NCBI GenBank assembly: GCA_021155855.1
Contig: JAJNAZ010000018.1
Span: 1-47,316, forward strand
Origin: Solirubrobacterales bacterium
GTDB taxonomy: Bacteria; Actinomycetota; Thermoleophilia; Solirubrobacterales; 70-9
Direction: 5' to 3'
Length of the DNA stretch: 47,316 nt
Positions 39,024 through 46,640 of the stretch are shown here, piece by piece. The translations under genes and the position numbers were made by a program. The stretch's first letter is position 1. Each line of letters opens with the position of its first letter. The notes beneath the pieces were generated by a model. That model saw nothing but the letters and a program-made list of their open reading frames with translations, was not told the origin of the DNA and made no database searches.

Positions 39024-39851
39024 TATGCATCAGGCCGGGTCGTGGTAGCAATATGGTCGCATTGTGTTGATTGTGCGGGGCGCCGGGAGATCCCGCCTTC
39101 AGGGTCTCAACGTCGACGATCTCGACGTCCTGTGGGTTCTGGCGCCCGCGAACGCTTGCGAGAGAGTGACCTCGAATGGACACGCCAGCCGCCACGCCGC
39201 GGCGATTGAGGCCTGAGGGGGGCGCGCGACGAGCAGACGGGGTTCAAGTTTGCGTGGACCATCCACGCGACCCGCTCGGCCCGAAGGTCTGCCCTCGCCA
39301 GGAGGTACCCCGAGCTGTTGTTTCAGCGCTGGTACGGCACAGCTCGAACTCGTCGGTCTTGGCGAAGCGGAAGCAGTACTCGATCGCGTCCTTCAAGGCC
39401 TGTCGATAGTTGCCCTAGGGCACACCCTTGGTCGCAAACCTGGCGACCGTGTCCCAGCCGTCCTCGGTGTCGGGCTTGTCCGTCTTGCCCCGGAAACCCC
39501 GGTCGCGTAGCTCATCCGACACGTCGTAGCCTCCGGTGCCGCTGACGATGTTCGAGATCAGGCGAGCGAGAGCTGGCAACGCAGCGCCGGCTCGAGCCGA
39601 AAGGTTGCCGCCATCTTCCAGCGCGTCCACCGGGACCGACACGTCCTCGAAGGCCCGGAGGGTCGTGGCCAGCTCCGTTGGCGTGTAGCCGAGATGAGTC
39701 GGAAGATGCGCAGCGTTCGAGGGTCGGCCTCATCCGTAGTCCCGCCCGGACGCGCACCCCGCGCGGGCTACGGATCCAATCGTCGTCGGTTGCGTCTCAG
39801 ACGGTGCGCTTTACGACGATGGGTCGGCGGTTCGTGCACAATCCGTCAGCG
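39024..39851. other. Intergenic stretch with no intact gene
   Basis: More than 800 bases between the tRNA and the flavodoxin remnant. The open frames here are short and most lack ribosome binding sites. The only part that reads like real protein is the minus-strand remnant at about 39266-39735. I saw no tRNA 3'-end duplication longer than about 8 bases that could be an attachment site, no integrase and no IS ends. Confidence 0.6.
39266..39735 (-). pseudogene. Unrecognised degraded gene, split by a stop
   Basis: The minus strand reads LGYTPTELATTLRAFEDVSV, then a Gly/Ala-rich stretch, then VSDELRDRGFRGKTDKPDTE and WDTVARFATKGVP before a TAG near 39415. The same frame resumes directly as GNYRQALKDAIEYCFRFAKT and decays within about 30 codons. 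The composition is protein-like on both sides of the stop, so this looks like one gene broken by a nonsense change. I cannot name the family. A GTG at 39642 could still start a 75-residue product. Confidence 0.4.
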
Positions 39852-40374
39852 ATGCCTGCGCTCGGGTCTTCGAGTCGATCTCCGGCAACACCTGCGCCGT
39901 GGCCGAGGCGATCGCCGAGGGCCTGCGGGCAGCCGGCGAGGAGGTCGAGATCCGCGCGGTTCACGCTGCGGACGCGGCCTCGGTCGAGGCCGCCGACCTG
40001 CTGATCGTCGGAGGCCCGACGCAATGCACGGACTCTCGACCTCGCTCAGCCGCAAGCTGGCCGTTCAGGCCGGCGAGGAGGACGGTGCGGAGATCGAGCC
40101 CGGCGCGACCGAGGAGCCCGGGCTGCGCCAGTGGCTGTCGAGGCGGACGGGCGAGGCGTAGGGCGAGCGCCTTCGACACCCGCCTCGACCGCTCTCCCAC
40201 CCTCACCGGTGTCGCTGCCCGCGGCATCGCGCGGAGGCTGCGGCGCCGGGCTATGAGCTCGTCGGCGATTCCGAGAGCTTTCTGGTCGAGGACTCCGAGG
40301 GGCCGCTGGCGGACGAGCGCGAGCGAGCTCGCGATTGGGGAGCCGGGTTGGCGGAGAGGGCATCCGCGAGCTAG
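39852..40374 (+). pseudogene. Flavodoxin-family pseudogene with three frameshifts
   Basis: Pieces in family order lie in three frames. First RVFESISGNTCAVAEAIAEG, including the FMN phosphate loop, through EAADLLIVGGPTQ. After a shift near 40023 comes MHGLSTSLSRKLAVQAGEED through GLRQWLSRRTGEA. After a shift near 40158 comes SAFDTRLDRSPTLTGVAARG, and after one near 40245 GYELVGDSESFLVEDSEGPL through DWGAGLAERASAS and TAG at 40372. The first strand of the fold is damaged, as no clear start precedes RVFESISG. It cannot encode a working flavodoxin unless these are sequencing errors. Confidence 0.8.
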
Positions 40375-40408: not shown

Positions 40409-40630
40409 CTATTTCCGCTCGGGCGCGAAGTGCTGGACCGAGGCGTCGGAGCTCGGATAGAACGTGCTGACGACCCCATCCTCCCAGCGCACCTCGTATG
40501 GCGGTGCGCCGTCCTCCCCGTGAACCTCGAGGATCTCTCCGTCGCGCGGGGGCTCGCCCAGGTGATGCCCATGGACCACCACGCGGTCGCCCGGACTCGC
40601 TCGTAGCGACGCTCTTCGGCTTGCCGACAT
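40409..40630 (-). CDS. DUF1918 domain protein
   Basis: A 73-residue protein matching the actinobacterial DUF1918 family: ASPGDRVVVHGHHLGEPPRD, then GEILEVHGEDGAPPYEVRWEDG and the end FYPSSDASVQHF. The fold is probably a small SH3-like beta barrel; the function is unknown. The ATG at 40630 is preferred over an adjacent TTG, with GAGGAGG upstream on the minus strand. It is divergent from the dodecin gene and is a common companion of stress genes. Confidence 0.88.
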   Translation of the reverse strand: MSASRRASLRASPGDRVVVHGHHLGEPPRDGEILEVHGEDGAPPYEVRWEDGVVSTFYPSSDASVQHFAPERK

Positions 40631-40703
40631 CAACCGTTCCTCCTCTCGTTTCGACGATCGTCCCCCTGGCGCGGTCCTCGTGCATCGGTAGCGGCCACCA
40701 GGA

Positions 40704-40719
40704 AGGGTCAGTGGACCCT
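40704..40719. promoter_or_regulatory. Perfect palindrome upstream of the dodecin gene
   Basis: AGGGTC-AGTG-GACCCT is a 6-bp-arm inverted repeat in the 149-base divergent gap between DUF1918 and dodecin, 60 bases before the dodecin ATG. GGGTC/GACCC arms recall operators of dormancy-type response regulators, but the match to the DosR consensus is loose. It is a candidate operator for the stress module. Confidence 0.4.
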
Positions 40720-40779
40720 ACGGATGCGCCCTCGCCCCGGGCGATCGATGCTCCGACGGAAAGCGAGAAAGGGGAGTTC

Positions 40780-40980
40780 ATGTCAGTCGCAAAGGTCATC
40801 GAGATCACGTCGTCCTCTGACCAGAGCTTCGAGGATGCGATCGTCAAGGGAATCGCGAAGGCATCGGAGTCGGTGCGAGACATCCGCGGCGCATGGGTCA
40901 ACGAGCAGATGGTCAGGGTCGAGAGCGGCGAGATCGTCGAATACCGCACCGACCTCAAGGTCACCTTCGTGCTCGAGTAG
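40780..40980 (+). CDS. Dodecin family flavin-binding protein
   Basis: A 66-residue dodecin, a dodecameric flavin (or CoA) storage protein. SVAKVIEITSSSDQSFEDAI, then the helix ending in RDIRGAWVNEQMVRV with the flavin-stacking tryptophan W39, and EYRTDLKVTFVLE match the family throughout. GGGGAG lies 5 bases before the ATG at 40780. It probably heads the module that continues with the site-2 protease and universal stress protein genes. Confidence 0.93.
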   Translation: MSVAKVIEITSSSDQSFEDAIVKGIAKASESVRDIRGAWVNEQMVRVESGEIVEYRTDLKVTFVLE

Positions 40981-41040
40981 TAGTAGGCGCTCCGGCGAAA
41001 TGAGGCTCTGCCATGTGAGGCTCTGCGACGGTCGGCGGTC

Positions 41041-42249
41041 ATGACCTCGAGCCTGCGACTTGGCCGCCTCGCCGGGGTCGAGATCGGTCTCCACTGGAGC
41101 TGGGCGCTGATCTTTGCCCTGATCGTCTGGTCGCTCGCCGACGGCGTGTTCCCGGAGACAAACCCGGGACTCGCCGACGGTACGTATCTCGCGATGGCGG
41201 TCGTCGCGGTACTGCTCTTCTTCGGTTCGCTGCTCCTCCACGAGTTGGGCCACGCGACGCGCGCCCTGCGCGAGGGTATGGAGATCGAGGGGATCACGCT
41301 GTGGATCTTCGGCGGCATCGCACGTTTTCGCGGCTTGTTCCCCTCCGCCGGGGCCGAGTTTCGGATCGCGATCGCCGGACCGATCGTCTCGCTCGTGATC
41401 GGGGCGTGCGCGCTCGCCGGGGCGCTGGTGCTGCCGCTCCCCAGCGCGGTCGACGGCGTGGTCTTCTGGCTCGGCTACATCAATCTCGCCGTTCTCGTCT
41501 TCAACCTGATGCCGGCGCTGCCGCTCGATGGTGGCCGCGTCCTGCGCTCGGCGCTGTGGGCTCGCAAGCGCGACTTCCTGGCCGCGACCCGCGCCGCCGC
41601 GGCTATCGGCCAGGGGTTCGGCCAGATGCTGATCGCGCTCGGCGTCCTCTCGGTGTTGCTCGGCGGCGCAATCGGCGGTCTGTGGCTGGTATTCATCGGC
41701 TGGTTCGTGCTCGCCGCGGCCCAGGCGGAGCGCGCGGGCGCGGAGACGCACGAGGCGCTCAGCGGCGTGCGCGTGGAGGACGTGATGGTCGCGAGGCCGC
41801 TCACGGTCGATCCGGGGGTTCGACTGGAGGAGTTCATGGACCGCTACTTCTTCCAGCATCGGCACGTTGCCTATCCCGTCCTCCACGATGACCGTCCGGT
41901 GGGCCTGGTCTCGTTTCGTTCGGTGCTCGCCGTGCCGCGCGACTCGTGGTCGGAGCGGCGAGTCGGCGACGTGATGTCACCACTCGAGCGCCTGCCGACT
42001 TTCGCGCCCGAGACGCCACTGGAGTCGGCTGTGGAACGGCTCAGCCAGAGCGACGCCAACCGCGGCTTGGTGCTCGACGACGGCCGGCTTGCCGGGTTGC
42101 TCTCGATCACCGACGCCGCCCGCGTGATCGAGGCGCGGCGGGTCGCGAGCCTGCCCGAGAGCGGCGAGCCGGCCTCATCGGGAGGAGAACGAGGCCGAAC
42201 CGCCGGGTACCTTGCGCCGGCGAGCGTCGATCGAGGGGGCGGATCATGA
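41041..42249 (+). CDS. Site-2 protease family zinc metalloprotease with two CBS domains
   Basis: A 402-residue intramembrane metalloprotease. The zinc motif HELGH is at residues 67-71 between hydrophobic segments, and NLMPALPLDGGR carries the third ligand D163. About six membrane segments precede residue 235. Two CBS domains fill about residues 245-370 (VEDVMVARPLTVDPGVRLEE and VGDVMSPLERLPTFAPETPL) and probably sense adenine nucleotides. It resembles Rip3-type mycobacterial proteases found in the DosR regulon; the substrate is unknown. Its stop overlaps the next gene by 4 bases. Confidence 0.93.
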   Translation: MTSSLRLGRLAGVEIGLHWSWALIFALIVWSLADGVFPETNPGLADGTYLAMAVVAVLLFFGSLLLHELGHATRALREGMEIEGITLWIFGGIARFRGLFPSAGAEFRIAIAGPIVSLVIGACALAGALVLPLPSAVDGVVFWLGYINLAVLVFNLMPALPLDGGRVLRSALWARKRDFLAATRAAAAIGQGFGQMLIALGVLSVLLGGAIGGLWLVFIGWFVLAAAQAERAGAETHEALSGVRVEDVMVARPLTVDPGVRLEEFMDRYFFQHRHVAYPVLHDDRPVGLVSFRSVLAVPRDSWSERRVGDVMSPLERLPTFAPETPLESAVERLSQSDANRGLVLDDGRLAGLLSITDAARVIEARRVASLPESGEPASSGGERGRTAGYLAPASVDRGGGS

Positions 42250-43142
42250 GCAAGGTCGTGGTCGGATTCGATGGGCGCGATGCGTCGCGGGACGCGCTGC
42301 GCCTGGGCAGGGAACTGGCGGCGGTCGAGGATGCGGAGCTGCAGGTCGCGGTTGCGGTGGCCTACGCGCCGCTGCCGATCACCGTCGAGGCATTCGACCG
42401 CGCGCGCGCCGAACGCTTCCGCGAGCTGTTCGCCGAGGTCGAGCGCGAGCTCGACAGTGCGGAGTTCGTGCGCTGGGAGCTCGAGGACGCCTCCCCGGCG
42501 CACGCTCTCGACCAGTTGGCCGAAAGCCAGCAGGCCGAGATGATCGTGATCGGGTCCACCCACCGCGGGGCGCTCGGACGCGTCTATCCGGGCAGCGTCG
42601 GCGAGCGCCTGCTGAGCGGCGCGCCGTGCGCGATCTGCGTCGCGCCCCGGGGCTACGCCGAGCGCGAGCACGCGGGACTGGGACTGATCGGCGTGGGTTA
42701 CGACGGCAGCCCGGAGGCCGAGGTCGCCCTCGGCGAGGCCGAGGGGTTGGCGCGCAGGCTGGGGGGCACCCTGCGCCTGATCGCTGTGGTTCCCCCGGTC
42801 GTGCCGATGCCGGCGCGCATCGGCCATACGGACGGTGGCTTTCGCAAGGTCCTCCGTGAGCACTTCGAGCGGGTGCTGGAGACCGGGTCCGCCCGGCTCG
42901 CCGGCCGCCTCGACCTCGAGGCGGCGCTCCTGGAGGGCGACCCGGCGGCGGCCCTCGTCGATCAGGGCGTCGAGCTCGACCTGCTCGTGCTCGGCTCGCG
43001 AGGCTACGGGCCGTTTCGCCGCACACTGCTCGGCGGGGTGGCGGCGAAGGTGATGCGCACGGCGCCGTGTCCGGTGATCGTCGTGCCAAGGGGGGCCGAG
43101 CGCCCGGACGAGGTCGGTGCGCCGGCCCGTGAGGCCACGTGA
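42246..43142 (+). CDS. Tandem-domain universal stress protein
   Basis: A 298-residue protein with two UspA domains. Each has an ATP-binding-type pattern: GSTHRGALGRVYPGSVGERL in the first (near residue 102) and GSRGYGPFRRTLLGGVAAKV in the second (near 249). Both domains open with the DG-S/A start (VVVGFDGRDAS, GVGYDGSPEA). The ATG at 42246 sits in an ATGA overlap with the site-2 protease gene, so the two are co-translated. In actinobacteria such proteins accumulate in hypoxia and stationary phase. Confidence 0.94.
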   Translation: MSKVVVGFDGRDASRDALRLGRELAAVEDAELQVAVAVAYAPLPITVEAFDRARAERFRELFAEVERELDSAEFVRWELEDASPAHALDQLAESQQAEMIVIGSTHRGALGRVYPGSVGERLLSGAPCAICVAPRGYAEREHAGLGLIGVGYDGSPEAEVALGEAEGLARRLGGTLRLIAVVPPVVPMPARIGHTDGGFRKVLREHFERVLETGSARLAGRLDLEAALLEGDPAAALVDQGVELDLLVLGSRGYGPFRRTLLGGVAAKVMRTAPCPVIVVPRGAERPDEVGAPAREAT

Positions 43143-43195
43143 TCACACTGAGATGCTGCTCGCAGCCGAACGGGCGGTGAGCGGAGGGCGCCAGC

Positions 43196-44050
43196 ATGCT
43201 GCGTCAGGGCCGCTCGCACGTCGGCGCGCTGATCGCCAAGGGTGACCGCGACTTCGCCACCGCCGTCGAAATAAGTATCGAGGAGGCGGTCAGGCGGCTC
43301 CTCGCCGCCGAGGTCCCCGGGATCCCGCTCCTCGGGGAGGAGGAGGAAGGTGCGACGCTCGACGAGGGAGTGCTCTGGGTCCTCGACCCGATCGACGGCA
43401 CGGTCAACTTCACCCGCGACAGCCTGCTGTGTGCAATCTCGCTGGCGCTGGTCGAGGACGGCCAGCCGTCGCTGGCGGTGGTCGATCTGCCGCTGCTCGG
43501 GCGAGCGCTACGTCGCAGCCCGCGGCGGCGGCCTACCTCAACGGCCAGCCGCCGATCGGAGTCTCTGACACCCTCGCCTCGAGGCGGCGACTGTCGGGAT
43601 GGCGGACCTCGCGGTCGGCTCGGGAGCCCCAGCAGCAGAACGGCGTCCACCTCGAGCTCGTGCGCGAGCTCGCGGTGCGGGCACTGCGAATCAGGGTGCA
43701 CGGCTCGGAGGCTGTGGACCTCGCCTGGCTGGCCGCGGGCCGGCTCGACGCCGCGCTGATGCTGTCCAATCTGCCCTGTGACGTCGGCGGGGGCATCCTG
43801 GCTCGTCCGCGAGGCGGGCGGGCTCGTCTACGACGCCGACGGAGAGCCGTATACCCCGCGCTCGAAGTACACCCTCGCCTCGACCGCGGCGCTCGTCGAA
43901 CCTGTGGTCGAAGTCGTTCGCGACGCGATCGCCGCGACTCAGCCGAAGCCGGGGCGATCGCGAGTCGCCCCGGTTATCCTGGCCGTCCCGTGGCGCGCCC
44001 GGAGCGAGAGGTCGGACGGATCGCGATCTTCTCGCCCAACCCGCTGTTGA
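43196..44050 (+). pseudogene. Inositol monophosphatase family pseudogene
   Basis: The first frame (from the ATG at 43196, with GGAGGG upstream) reads GIPLLGEEEEGATLDEGVLW and VLDPIDGTVNFTRDSLLCAI, the metal-binding motifs. At about 43500 the frame changes to GERYVAARGGG and again to AYLNGQPPIGVSDTL. A third frame carries AVDLAWLAAGRLDAALMLSN through LPCDVGGG, and a fourth piece WLVREAGGLVYDADGEPYTP closes the fold. At least three frameshifts break it, and the expected WDVAAG motif has become CDVGGG. Its end overlaps the PfkB start. Confidence 0.8.
43975..43980 (+). promoter_or_regulatory. Candidate leaderless -10 for the PfkB gene
   Basis: TATCCT ends 9 bases before the GTG at 43990. It is the closest match to TATAAT among the leaderless-type elements in the window, and would let the kinase be expressed although the gene before it is broken. 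Confidence 0.5.
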
Positions 44051-44928
44051 CGATCGCGATCGAAGCCAGGGGCGAGGGGAGGGACGACATCCACCTGCAC
44101 GCGGGCGGCCAGGGCGTTTGGGTGGCGCGCGCAGCGAGCGAGATGGGCGGCGATCCCGTGCTCTGTGGATTGATCGGCGGCGAGACCGGCGCGGTGCTCG
44201 AGCCCCTCCTCGAGCGCCTGCCAGCGCAGCGGCGGCTGGTCCGCACCGATACGGCCAGCGGGTGCCACGTCTTCGACCGCCGCAGCGGGCAGCGCGTGCT
44301 GCTCTCGCGGATGGCCGCGGAGCCGCCCACGCGGCACGAGCTCGACGACCTGTTCTCGCTCACCTGCGCCGTCGCCTTGGAGGCCGCGACGCTGGTGATC
44401 TGCAATCCCGATCCGCCCCAGGCGTGGCCGCTCGACCTCTACGCGAACCTCGCCGCCGATGCCGGCGCCAACGGCACGCCGGTGCTGGTCGACCTCTCCT
44501 CGCCGCGCCTGGACAGCGCTCTCGAGGGTCGCCCGCACCTGGTCAAGATCAACGACTGGGAGCTGGCGGAGTTCGTGGCCGGGCCGGTCGACGGGCCCGG
44601 GCGTCTGCGGGCGGCCGCCGAGCTGCTCCGCGAGCGGGGTGCCGCCAACGTGATCATCACTCGGGGAGGCGAGCCCGCCCTCGTCCTGCACGGAGATGCG
44701 GCGTCGTGGCTTGTGCCGCCACGGTTCGAGCGGGGCGCCCGGGAGGGCTGCGGCGACACGATGATGGGGGCGCTTGCCGCCGCGCTCGCCCTCGACCGCC
44801 CCTTGGACCAGGCGGCGGTCACCGCAGCTGCCGCGGGTGCCGTCAATTACCTTCGCCACGGTCTCGGATCGGGCGAGCGCCCGGTGATTGAGGAGATCGC
44901 GGCGGAGGTGGAGCTGGTGCCGTTCTAG
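43990..44928 (+). CDS. PfkB family sugar kinase (1-phosphofructokinase-like)
   Basis: A 312-residue ribokinase-fold enzyme. FSPNPLLTIAIEA at the N-terminus and GGQGVWVARAASEMGGDPVL are like tagatose-6-phosphate/1-phosphofructokinases. KINDWELAEF near residue 183 replaces the usual KPNxxEL. The anion-hole motif is EGCGDTMMGALAAAL with the catalytic aspartate near residue 255, where most members have GAGDS. The GTG at 43990 is in frame with an earlier stretch belonging to the broken phosphatase gene. In actinobacteria a PfkB gene is commonly found in DosR-type stress loci. Confidence 0.88.
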   Translation: MARPEREVGRIAIFSPNPLLTIAIEARGEGRDDIHLHAGGQGVWVARAASEMGGDPVLCGLIGGETGAVLEPLLERLPAQRRLVRTDTASGCHVFDRRSGQRVLLSRMAAEPPTRHELDDLFSLTCAVALEAATLVICNPDPPQAWPLDLYANLAADAGANGTPVLVDLSSPRLDSALEGRPHLVKINDWELAEFVAGPVDGPGRLRAAAELLRERGAANVIITRGGEPALVLHGDAASWLVPPRFERGAREGCGDTMMGALAAALALDRPLDQAAVTAAAAGAVNYLRHGLGSGERPVIEEIAAEVELVPF

Positions 44929-45650
44929 TCGGCGGCGAGAGGCGGCTCGAGGTCGTCGCCCCTGACGATCGCCGCCGGCGCGGTGTGCGCGATCCAGTCG
45001 AGGTGAGGGCGTAGCTCCGGGTCCTCGCGCAGGCGCTCGAGTGCGCCCGCGATCCGTACCGGTCGACCGTGGCGAGCGGAGTGGGAGTCGCTGCCGAGCA
45101 CGTGCAAGAGCCCGTGTCGCGCCAGATCGAGCAGCGGCTCGGCGGCCTCGCCCTCGGCGAGCAGTGCGGCTGTTGCCTGCACGAGACAACCGGCCGCGAC
45201 GAGCTCGGCCAAGCGCTCCTGAAAATCCGCCGCCGGATGTCGCTCCGGGTGAGCGATCAGGCTCCGGTAGCCGCGCCATCGGAGGCGTTCAGCGGCGGCC
45301 GCGAGCGAGTCTCCGAGCGGCCCCGGGGCGGGCTCGAGCAGGATCCAGCGGCCGCCCAGGGCGACGCTCCGAAGCTCCTCGTCGGCCAGGCCGTCGACAA
45401 CCGTCTCCGCGACCTCGCCACCGCCGATCACGCTCACCGCCACGTCGCGGCGTGCGAGCTCGGCGTTGAGCCCGGCGACGCGCCCGGCGAGCTCGTGTAT
45501 CCGGACGTCGTGATCGTGGCGGATGTGAGGGGTGGCGCAGATCGCCTCGATCCCGTCCTCGGCGCCCTGGCGGGCCATCGCCACGCTGTCCTCGATGTCA
45601 ACCGCGCCGTCGTCGATCCCGGCCAGGATGTGGCAGTGGAGGTCGATCAT
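44925..45650 (-). CDS. PHP-domain phosphatase (CpsB/YwqE-like)
   Basis: A 241-residue metal-dependent phosphatase of the polymerase-and-histidinol-phosphatase fold, similar to tyrosine-protein phosphatases of capsule loci. The metal ligands are in MIDLHCHILAGIDDGA (H5, H7, D13), CATPHIRHDHD, LIAHPERH and GSDSHSARHG. EDSVAMARQGAEDGI after the first motif is typical of CpsB. Its last 4 bases overlap the convergent PfkB gene. A broken universal stress gene lies just upstream on the same strand. There is no exopolysaccharide gene nearby, so its target is unclear. Confidence 0.9.
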   Translation of the reverse strand: MIDLHCHILAGIDDGAVDIEDSVAMARQGAEDGIEAICATPHIRHDHDVRIHELAGRVAGLNAELARRDVAVSVIGGGEVAETVVDGLADEELRSVALGGRWILLEPAPGPLGDSLAAAAERLRWRGYRSLIAHPERHPAADFQERLAELVAAGCLVQATAALLAEGEAAEPLLDLARHGLLHVLGSDSHSARHGRPVRIAGALERLREDPELRPHLDWIAHTAPAAIVRGDDLEPPLAAD

Positions 45651-45668: not shown

Positions 45669-46039
45669 TCACCTCTTCAGCCGCAGCAACGCCCCGACCT
45701 CGCGTTCGAACGCGGCGATGATCCGCTCCGGGTCCGGCACCAGGCCGGCGTCCAATTCGAGCACCGCCGGCGCGGGTCGCCCTTCCTCGAGCGTGACCGG
45801 GGCCAGCGCCGGGAAGCCGACCGTCGAGCTTCGCTCGCAGAGCTCGCGGAGCCAACCGCGAGCCTCCTCGGGATCGGGAGGCGCCCGATCCACACCGGCT
45901 CCGAAACCTCTCGATCGGGCTCGAGCACGTGAACAACCGTCACCCGGGAACCGAGCGCGCGCGCCAACTCCAGCGAGAAGTCGAGGCCGGCTCGCGAAGC
46001 GGCCGAGCCGTCATATGCGGTAAGCACTCGCTCAAACAC
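45669..46039 (-). pseudogene. Universal stress protein pseudogene (frameshifted)
   Basis: The GTG at 46039 opens VFERVLTAYDGSAASRAGLD followed by LELARALGSRVTVVHVLEPD, a UspA N-terminus. Near 45890 the frame shifts to DRAPPDPEEARGWLRELCER and continues to APAVLELDAGLVPDPERIIA and a stop at 45669. The C-terminal G-x2-G-x9-G nucleotide motif is missing, so it is both shifted and degraded. Confidence 0.7.
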
Positions 46040-46130
46040 GCTGGGGTCTGAAATACCAGCTTCGGCCCGGTGGTGCTTGATCTCCCCCGAGGGGTTCCGC
46101 CGCGCATGGATAGGCGAGAGCCGACAGCCC

Positions 46131-46400
46131 TGCGGGATCGACGGCTCCGAGGAGTCCCAAGCCGCGGCCGCCTTCGCGGCTCGATTGAGTGAGCGCCGTC
46201 GTCCCCGGCTGATCCTCGTACACGCCCTCGAGCAACCAGATACGGATCCGCTGACAACTGGCGAAAGCCGAGGATCCTCGACCTCGGCTACGACGCCCGG
46301 GCTCGTCGGTCGCTGCCCGCGCTGCGCTCGGACGTGTTGCTCGGCTCGGTGTGACTAACCTCGCCTCCTTGGTGGCGTGTCCGGTGCTCAGCGAGTCGTC
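46131..46400 (+). pseudogene. Universal stress protein remnant
   Basis: GIDGSEESQAAAAFAARLSE with RRRPRLILVHALEQPD is a UspA N-terminal strand-helix-strand. The middle is missing. A second frame gives LPALRSDVLLGSV up to a stop, and a third continues TNLASLVACPVL, the usual UspA end. The pieces are in order in three frames within 270 bases, so a large part of the domain is deleted. Confidence 0.65.
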
Positions 46401-46469
46401 TCACCCGACGTCTCGGCCTGATGCGAGAACTCGCGCACGATCAACCTGGTCGCTGATCGCTCTAATCGT

Positions 46470-46640
46470 CCTCGCCGGTCTCCCGTGGATGGGCGGCGCG
46501 ACGCACGACCAAGCCGAGCAGGAGGCTCGATGCGCCACTCGTTCGCTGACGCTCCCGAGTGTCTTGAGGCGGGTCATCCCACGGCTGCCGACGACGACAA
46601 GCGACGCCTGTCCCGAGCTGGCCAGCTTCACGCTCGCGCC
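46470..46640 (-). pseudogene. Universal stress protein C-terminal remnant
   Basis: The minus strand reads KLASSGQASLVVVGSRGMTR and LKTLGSVSERVAHRASCS, the UspA nucleotide-binding end. It then shifts frame to LLLGLVVRRAAHP, the expected last strand. No N-terminal half is present upstream; the next gene starts within 30 bases. Confidence 0.65.

Follow-up and report, generated by a model that had tools for sequence, protein, structure and literature searches.

To which regulon does a cluster of stress-type genes in a Solirubrobacterales bacterium belong, and which DNA element in its divergent promoter gap could serve as the operator? The window analysed here, meaning the whole stretch of 47,316 nucleotides (contig JAJNAZ010000018.1 of assembly GCA_021155855.1), carries near its end a module of genes for a DUF1918 protein, dodecin, a CBS-bearing site-2 protease (S2P), a tandem universal stress protein (Usp) and a PfkB kinase (Table 1). 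The original prediction had noticed this grouping, which was confirmed by Pfam, and had seen in it a possible distant version of the DosR response of mycobacteria, with flavin storage added and with a perfect palindrome in the divergent gap as candidate operator. The DosR-like idea proved largely correct as regards the sensor and the target genes: the sensor and the linkage of target genes in relatives agree with it, whereas the DNA-contact residues of the regulator and the box do not. We consider it likely, if well short of certain, that the DUF1918/dodecin/S2P/Usp module, perhaps with its inositol monophosphatase (IMPase) and PfkB genes, belongs, as a dispersed member, to a DosS-DosR-like stress regulon whose operator has been rewired.

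A DosS/DosT-like kinase and its neighbouring regulator

GerE domains were found at 8 places in the own genome and Usp domains at 19. One GerE gene, encoding a NarL-type response regulator on contig 11 (L087:6330-6980), adjoins a kinase gene (L087:6986-8677), and with this pair the search for a DosR-like regulator had a positive outcome. The kinase has 563 amino acids and the Pfam domain order GAF-GAF-HisKA_3-HATPase; in phmmer searches its first GAF domain matches DosT (2vzw, E 1e-44) and DevS (2w3d, 1.5e-42). In this GAF-A domain the HHPPMRTFLG stretch and the proximal haem-ligand histidine (His149/His147) are aligned, and so is the tyrosine of LYLT, whose match to the named Tyr171 rests on counting from the histidine. 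His149, His147 and Tyr171 of DosS/DosT and the haem-ligand role of the histidine are as given in the accessible part of PMC4082495. The haem histidine is kept in all 20 relatives' kinases that were read. At the position of Glu87 of DosS, the residue that gates oxygen access, the same alignment has glycine in the contig-11 kinase, as in DosT. Judged from these alignments, the contig-11 kinase appears DosS/DosT-like and is predicted to be a haem sensor of O2/NO/CO or of redox.

The regulator matches VraR (1.3e-28) about as well as DevR (9e-28). Lys179, Lys182 and Asn183 of DevR, which contact DNA according to the accessible part of PMC4082495, are replaced by Arg, Glu and Thr (VRTVETHR aligned with EKTVKNYV). 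From the sensor matches together with the replaced DNA-contact residues the kinase was therefore classed as DosS/DosT-like and the regulator as a NarL-type protein with another recognition helix. The stress island on contig 11 also encodes a tandem Usp, a CBS protein, VIT1 and several Pyr_redox_2 oxidoreductases.

Some further genes were seen in this DosS island (L087/L088), namely those for a molybdopterin oxidoreductase, a trehalose-synthase-like glycosyltransferase, pyruvate phosphate dikinase (PPDK) and five or more Pyr_redox_2/SQR-like proteins, and by eye apparent 2-oxoacid:ferredoxin oxidoreductase genes. Contig 71 (L098 3586-4212) encodes another regulator from this subfamily, with 54% identity to the one on contig 11, and no kinase gene was recognised beside it within the 7-kb stretch read.

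Gene types of the module adjoin the kinase and regulator genes in relatives

A DosS-like kinase (E <= 1e-60) was detected in at least 44 of 101 related genomes; the count is a lower bound, as up to 13 candidates were scored per genome and the DosS-like gene of G042 (in L258) was missed. Twenty DosS loci and four further S2P loci were annotated with our own gene caller and phmmer, and with Pfam for selected genes. In G005 the order is Hsp20, divergent from dodecin, DosS, regulator, CBS and Usp, and the dodecin beside the DosS-like gene is 67% identical to that of the window. The closest matches of the window's Usp among the annotated loci are likewise in DosS islands, those of G005 (5e-86) and G019 (2e-87). 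The order IMPase-PfkB recurs in G078 within a few kb of DosS. In G042 and G051, 10-36 bp separate an S2P relative (51% identical) from the regulator gene, which has the same orientation, with DosS alongside. On contig 204 of G023, Usp, PfkB, SQR, S2P and PPDK stand together in one stretch (L048), and the next stretch (L139) holds the regulator, DosS, Usp, a PfkB fragment and dodecin. The gene content of a DosR regulon (Usp, CBS, S2P, PfkB, PPDK, zinc alcohol dehydrogenase, Hsp20) is thus linked to the kinase and regulator, spread over several relatives and not all in one genome.

Among the kinases of the relatives, the DosS-like open reading frame (ORF) of G052 (L129 2251-5325) is exceptional in encoding 1024 amino acids, about 450 more than the others, and may represent a fusion or an extension.

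A 7-3-7 palindrome at the promoters of stress islands

The half sites TCCGTAG and CTACGGA surfaced in a dyad count over 71 island-gene promoters, and TCCGTAG-N3-CTACGGA was the centre of the palindrome obtained by expectation-maximisation. When the 21 promoters of the subgroup with the own type of regulator were used, window excluded, random starts converged on C.TCCGTAG...CTACGGA.G with a log-likelihood of 180, compared with 98 for the next unrelated motif. The same motif was obtained from 13 promoters of four relatives alone (122 versus 64).

A search allowing up to one mismatch returned 39 sites in 26 of the 101 genomes; the control was the pattern read backwards, with 30 sites. Intergenic positions account for 34 of the 39 motif sites and 7 of the 30 control sites (Fisher 8e-8). 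The start of a stress-set gene (DosS, regulator, Usp, SQR-like or dodecin) lies at most 350 bp downstream of 20 motif sites and of no control site (Fisher 1.2e-6); motif sites that share a genus, as in g2, do not count as independent. With the four sites at training loci removed, 17 of 35 are upstream of stress-set genes (P 2.5e-6). The signal of the motif is its location, not its count. In several genomes motif sites precede the genes for the regulator and DosS as well, and in the own genome 5 of the 65 sites with up to three mismatches fall inside a 23-kb part of the contig-11 island, where about 0.5 would be expected (P 2e-4).

The element differs with the regulator. Promoters of genus g11, whose regulator has a helix of the VRAVEVNR type, gave a different element, GGCTTTTCCCCGATG-like, and motif discovery in the promoters of the ESHRAHIQQK regulator group gave no clear motif. 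The literature listings searched showed no report of a TCCGTAG-N3-CTACGGA operator, and none of the accessible papers mentions both Thermoleophilia and DosR. The looser pattern TCSGTRN5YACSGA proved too permissive and was dropped: 97 of 101 genomes contain it, and coding sequence is among its matches.

Two observations concern individual promoters. In G005 (L122, C107, 1287-2144) a one-mismatch operator lies between the divergent Hsp20 and dodecin genes, with the DosS gene adjoining; HspX is a flagship target of DosR in mycobacteria. The g11 stress-gene promoters (PfkB, dodecin, SQR and Usp; G023 L048, L049, L139) have in common an element like GGCTTTTCCCCGATGG.

Candidate boxes in the DUF1918/dodecin gap

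The gap between the divergent DUF1918 and dodecin genes measures 149 bp and contains a candidate operator that is one of only four sites with up to two mismatches in the own genome. A matrix from 21 relatives' sites, which was built from hits of a pattern whose discovery set had included the window, places this site at the top of 225,700 own-genome positions. With a matrix from the 13 promoters of four relatives, and hence no own-genome data, it ranks 9th of the same number, and the second, weaker candidate box of the gap ranks 15th. Eight of the top 15 positions in this ranking are in gaps of the contig-11 island or in the DUF1918/dodecin gap, one of the eight being within a called ORF that was taken as spurious. 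Paired boxes 23 bp apart, as in the gap, also precede the contig-11 regulator. Simulation with the 13-promoter matrix puts the chance of such a site arising in the gap at about 0.0015.

The palindrome of the original prediction, AGGGTC-AGTG-GACCCT (AGGGTCAGTGGACCCT), sits in the gap exactly at the position that had been given for it. However, its frequency is at chance level: of 64 promoter-type gaps in nine other stretches of the own genome, 37 contain an inverted repeat with arms of at least 6 and a spacer of at most 8. Its core GGGTC-N4-GACCC has five copies in the 2.83-Mb genome, and in a genome-wide search, with genes named by eye and without Pfam, no stress gene could be recognised at the other four; they are in or beside a uvrD/pcrA-like gene, an ORF of no known identity and gyrA, and upstream of glnA. 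Nor do 187 promoter-type gaps in the islands show enrichment of the DosR/OsdR architecture GGGNC-N4-GNCCC, which has 3 matches there against 1-8 for other spacers. The palindrome is probably incidental, and for its chance-level frequency and its lack of recurrence at recognisable stress genes it was rejected as operator; the TCCGTAG-type palindrome is the better candidate.

The literal DosR box GGGAC-N4-GTCCC has four copies in the own genome. The copy with the best DosR-like core (contig 11, 55380) was dismissed because it is within a coding region. In 11 own-genome promoters the DosR 20-mer mostly matched no better than it did in shuffled sequence; its best match (13/20) was equalled by 25 of 200 shuffles.

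Proposed regulation and alternative explanations

Starting from what was computed for the genes, the kinase/regulator pair, the linkage of their counterparts in relatives and the motif with its location bias, the following regulation can be proposed. The contig-11 kinase, with haem presumably bound to its GAF domain and with low oxygen or redox as the likely signal, would phosphorylate the adjacent NarL-type regulator. The regulator would then bind the 7-3-7 palindrome upstream of its own gene and of genes for Pyr_redox_2/SQR-like oxidoreductases, CBS proteins, PPDK and Usp. It would also bind the candidate operator in the DUF1918/dodecin promoter, perhaps aided by the weaker box, and this binding would activate transcription and switch on the dodecin-S2P-Usp genes.

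Several observations weigh against this proposal. On the side of the genes, four of the six S2P relatives with at least 50% identity are away from DosS and the regulator, the contig-11 regulator is as close to VraR as to DevR, and the module includes a frame-disrupted gene, with other disrupted genes around it. The site totals of the motif are not above the control, with matches in 26 versus 50 of the 101 genomes and, at up to three mismatches in the own genome, 65 versus 116 sites; the promoters of other regulator subgroups give a different motif or none. The site in the window is degenerate, and a whole-genome search found no site with up to one mismatch in the own genome. With the matrix free of own-genome data the window site ranks only 9th; 3 Mb of simulated sequence hold 30 positions that score as well or better, and one is found among 83,996 positions of control loci. 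A looser matrix from all 62 relatives' promoters raises the chance value for the gap to 0.0028. A close copy of the box is present in only one of six related dodecin promoters.

The degenerate site and the chance values of about 0.0015-0.003 for a single such site in 149 bp, which are not tiny, leave some room for an ordinary stress cluster with a general (sigma-factor or housekeeping) promoter and a box present by coincidence, the more so as Usp, CBS and dodecin often occur together in general stress islands. However, the gap has two boxes 23 bp apart, in the arrangement found upstream of the response regulator, and the gene types are linked to DosS and the regulator in relatives, so that we regard coincidence as unlikely. 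Distinctly improbable, in our judgement, is that the palindrome of the original prediction is itself a DosR/OsdR-type box, open to binding by a canonical DosR-like protein. It shares the layout GGGNC-N4-GNCCC with the OsdR consensus AGGGCCGATCGGCCCT, and its 6-4-6 spacing is that of OsdR sites in the accessible part of PMC5069765. Against it stand the missing enrichment of this architecture in the island gaps, the distance of the other four core copies from recognisable stress genes, the mostly shuffle-level 20-mer matches and the absence of all three DevR contact residues from the regulator.

The motif could also be real and be bound by another factor encoded in the islands. The pairing of motif and regulator is drawn from sequence, and several regulator paralogues and, by eye, a cyclic-nucleotide-binding-like protein are encoded in or near the islands. 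Yet motif sites precede the regulator and DosS genes in several genomes, and the motif varies with the recognition helix of the regulator (ETHR type versus VRAVEVNR type), and we give another factor little probability. That the module is decaying and unexpressed, a remnant of a stress island at the contig end, is suggested by the frame-disrupted or truncated IMPase, flavodoxin-like and several Usp genes in 39.8-46.6 kb. This we hold to be very unlikely: over their Pfam domains the frames of DUF1918, dodecin, S2P, Usp and PfkB run without interruption, plausible ribosome-binding sites precede DUF1918 and dodecin, and the disruptions may be assembly errors.

Comparison with known systems

The tandem GAF domains and the haem histidine are shared by the contig-11 kinase and the DosS/DosT-DosR (DevSR) system of Mycobacterium tuberculosis, and Usp, S2P-CBS, PfkB and CBS proteins are target types that its DosR regulon has in common with the module and the islands. 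We take Rv2625c to be the S2P-CBS protein, Rv2029c to be PfkB and Rv0569 to be a DUF1918 protein. Rv0569 is included in a list of hypoxia-induced genes in the accessible part of PMC4082495, a paper in which the locus names Rv2625c and Rv2029c also appear. In contrast to M. tuberculosis DosR, the contig-11 regulator is without the three base-contacting residues of DevR, the candidate operator is TCCGTAG-N3-CTACGGA instead of GGGAC-N4-GTCCC, and the island is rich in Pyr_redox_2/SQR-like genes and dodecin. Heptamer operators of the NarL family have inverted 7-bp half sites and a short spacer. The candidate operator has this layout, as expected for a NarL-type regulator, but it differs in the half-site sequence and the 3-bp spacer.

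For OsdK/OsdR of Streptomyces coelicolor, the accessible part of PMC5069765 likewise describes a DosS/DevS-type kinase with a DevR-type regulator, a stress island with Usp, PPDK and zinc alcohol dehydrogenase targets, as here, and a palindromic operator of similar length. The OsdR box AGGGCC-GATC-GGCCCT differs, however, and its architecture is not enriched in the islands studied here. The system, DosSR/OsdKR-like but at odds with that regulon in two defining features, the DNA-contact residues and the box, was therefore classed as a rewired variant.

If this is true, a DosSR-like dormancy regulon with a changed DNA code exists in a poorly studied high-GC lineage. It would link DUF1918, dodecin, a Rip3-like protease and IMPase/PfkB, all of them obscure proteins, to a DosS-type sensor in a lineage other than those from which the regulon is known in detail. 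It also supplies a concrete candidate operator of 17 bp and an example of operator and recognition helix apparently changing together while the regulon itself is conserved. The sensor and much of the target set may thus have been kept and the DNA code swapped, with helices and operators differing together between subgroups and conserved targets rewired one by one, including dispersed modules like DUF1918/dodecin/S2P/Usp; for this wider scenario we see the case as evenly balanced.

Genes of the module and its surroundings

Table 1. Genes and candidate regulatory elements of the module, in positions of the window
Feature	Position	Strand	Evidence or remark
DUF1918 protein	40409..40633	-	Pfam PF08940, E 9.4e-25; a family name only, which assigns no function
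Second, weaker candidate box TCGGTAG-CGG-CCACCAG	40685..40701		23 bp upstream of the candidate operator
Palindrome AGGGTC-AGTG-GACCCT	40704..40719		Present; overlaps the candidate operator by 12 bp
Candidate operator TCAGTGG-ACC-CTACGGA	40708..40724		2 mismatches to TCCGTAG-N3-CTACGGA
Dodecin	40780..40980	+	Pfam PF07311, E 5e-23
Site-2 protease, M50 and two CBS domains	41041..42249	+	Pfam PF02163, 4e-19; PF00571, 1e-15
Tandem universal stress protein, two Usp domains in a single ORF	42246..43142	+	Pfam PF00582, 2e-41
Inositol monophosphatase family gene, frame-disrupted	43196..43990	+	Pfam PF00459, 1e-20, first open stretch
PfkB-family sugar kinase	43990..44928	+	Pfam PF00294, 1.3e-23
CpsB/CapC-type phosphatase, convergent	44925..45650	-	Pfam

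The 5242-bp span includes two genes that had been omitted from the original prediction, the IMPase gene between Usp and PfkB and the CpsB/CapC-type phosphatase gene; as the latter is convergent, the named module ends at 44928. The likely start of the DUF1918 gene, read from the sequence, is the ATG at 40630 with GAGGAGG ahead of it. In the site-2 protease the motifs HELGH and LDGG are legible, and its domain architecture is Rip3-like. Pieces resembling the IMPase family are scattered across frames, and the gene is either a pseudogene or the product of an assembly error.

Broken or truncated genes at the contig end were seen at 39694-40161, 43196-43990, 45677-46039 and 46077-46631 (flavodoxin-like by eye, IMPase, Usp), a cluster of disruptions that reflects either real decay or assembly errors. 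The ribosomal-protein part of the window looks intact by eye, unlike the end at 39.8-46.6 kb.

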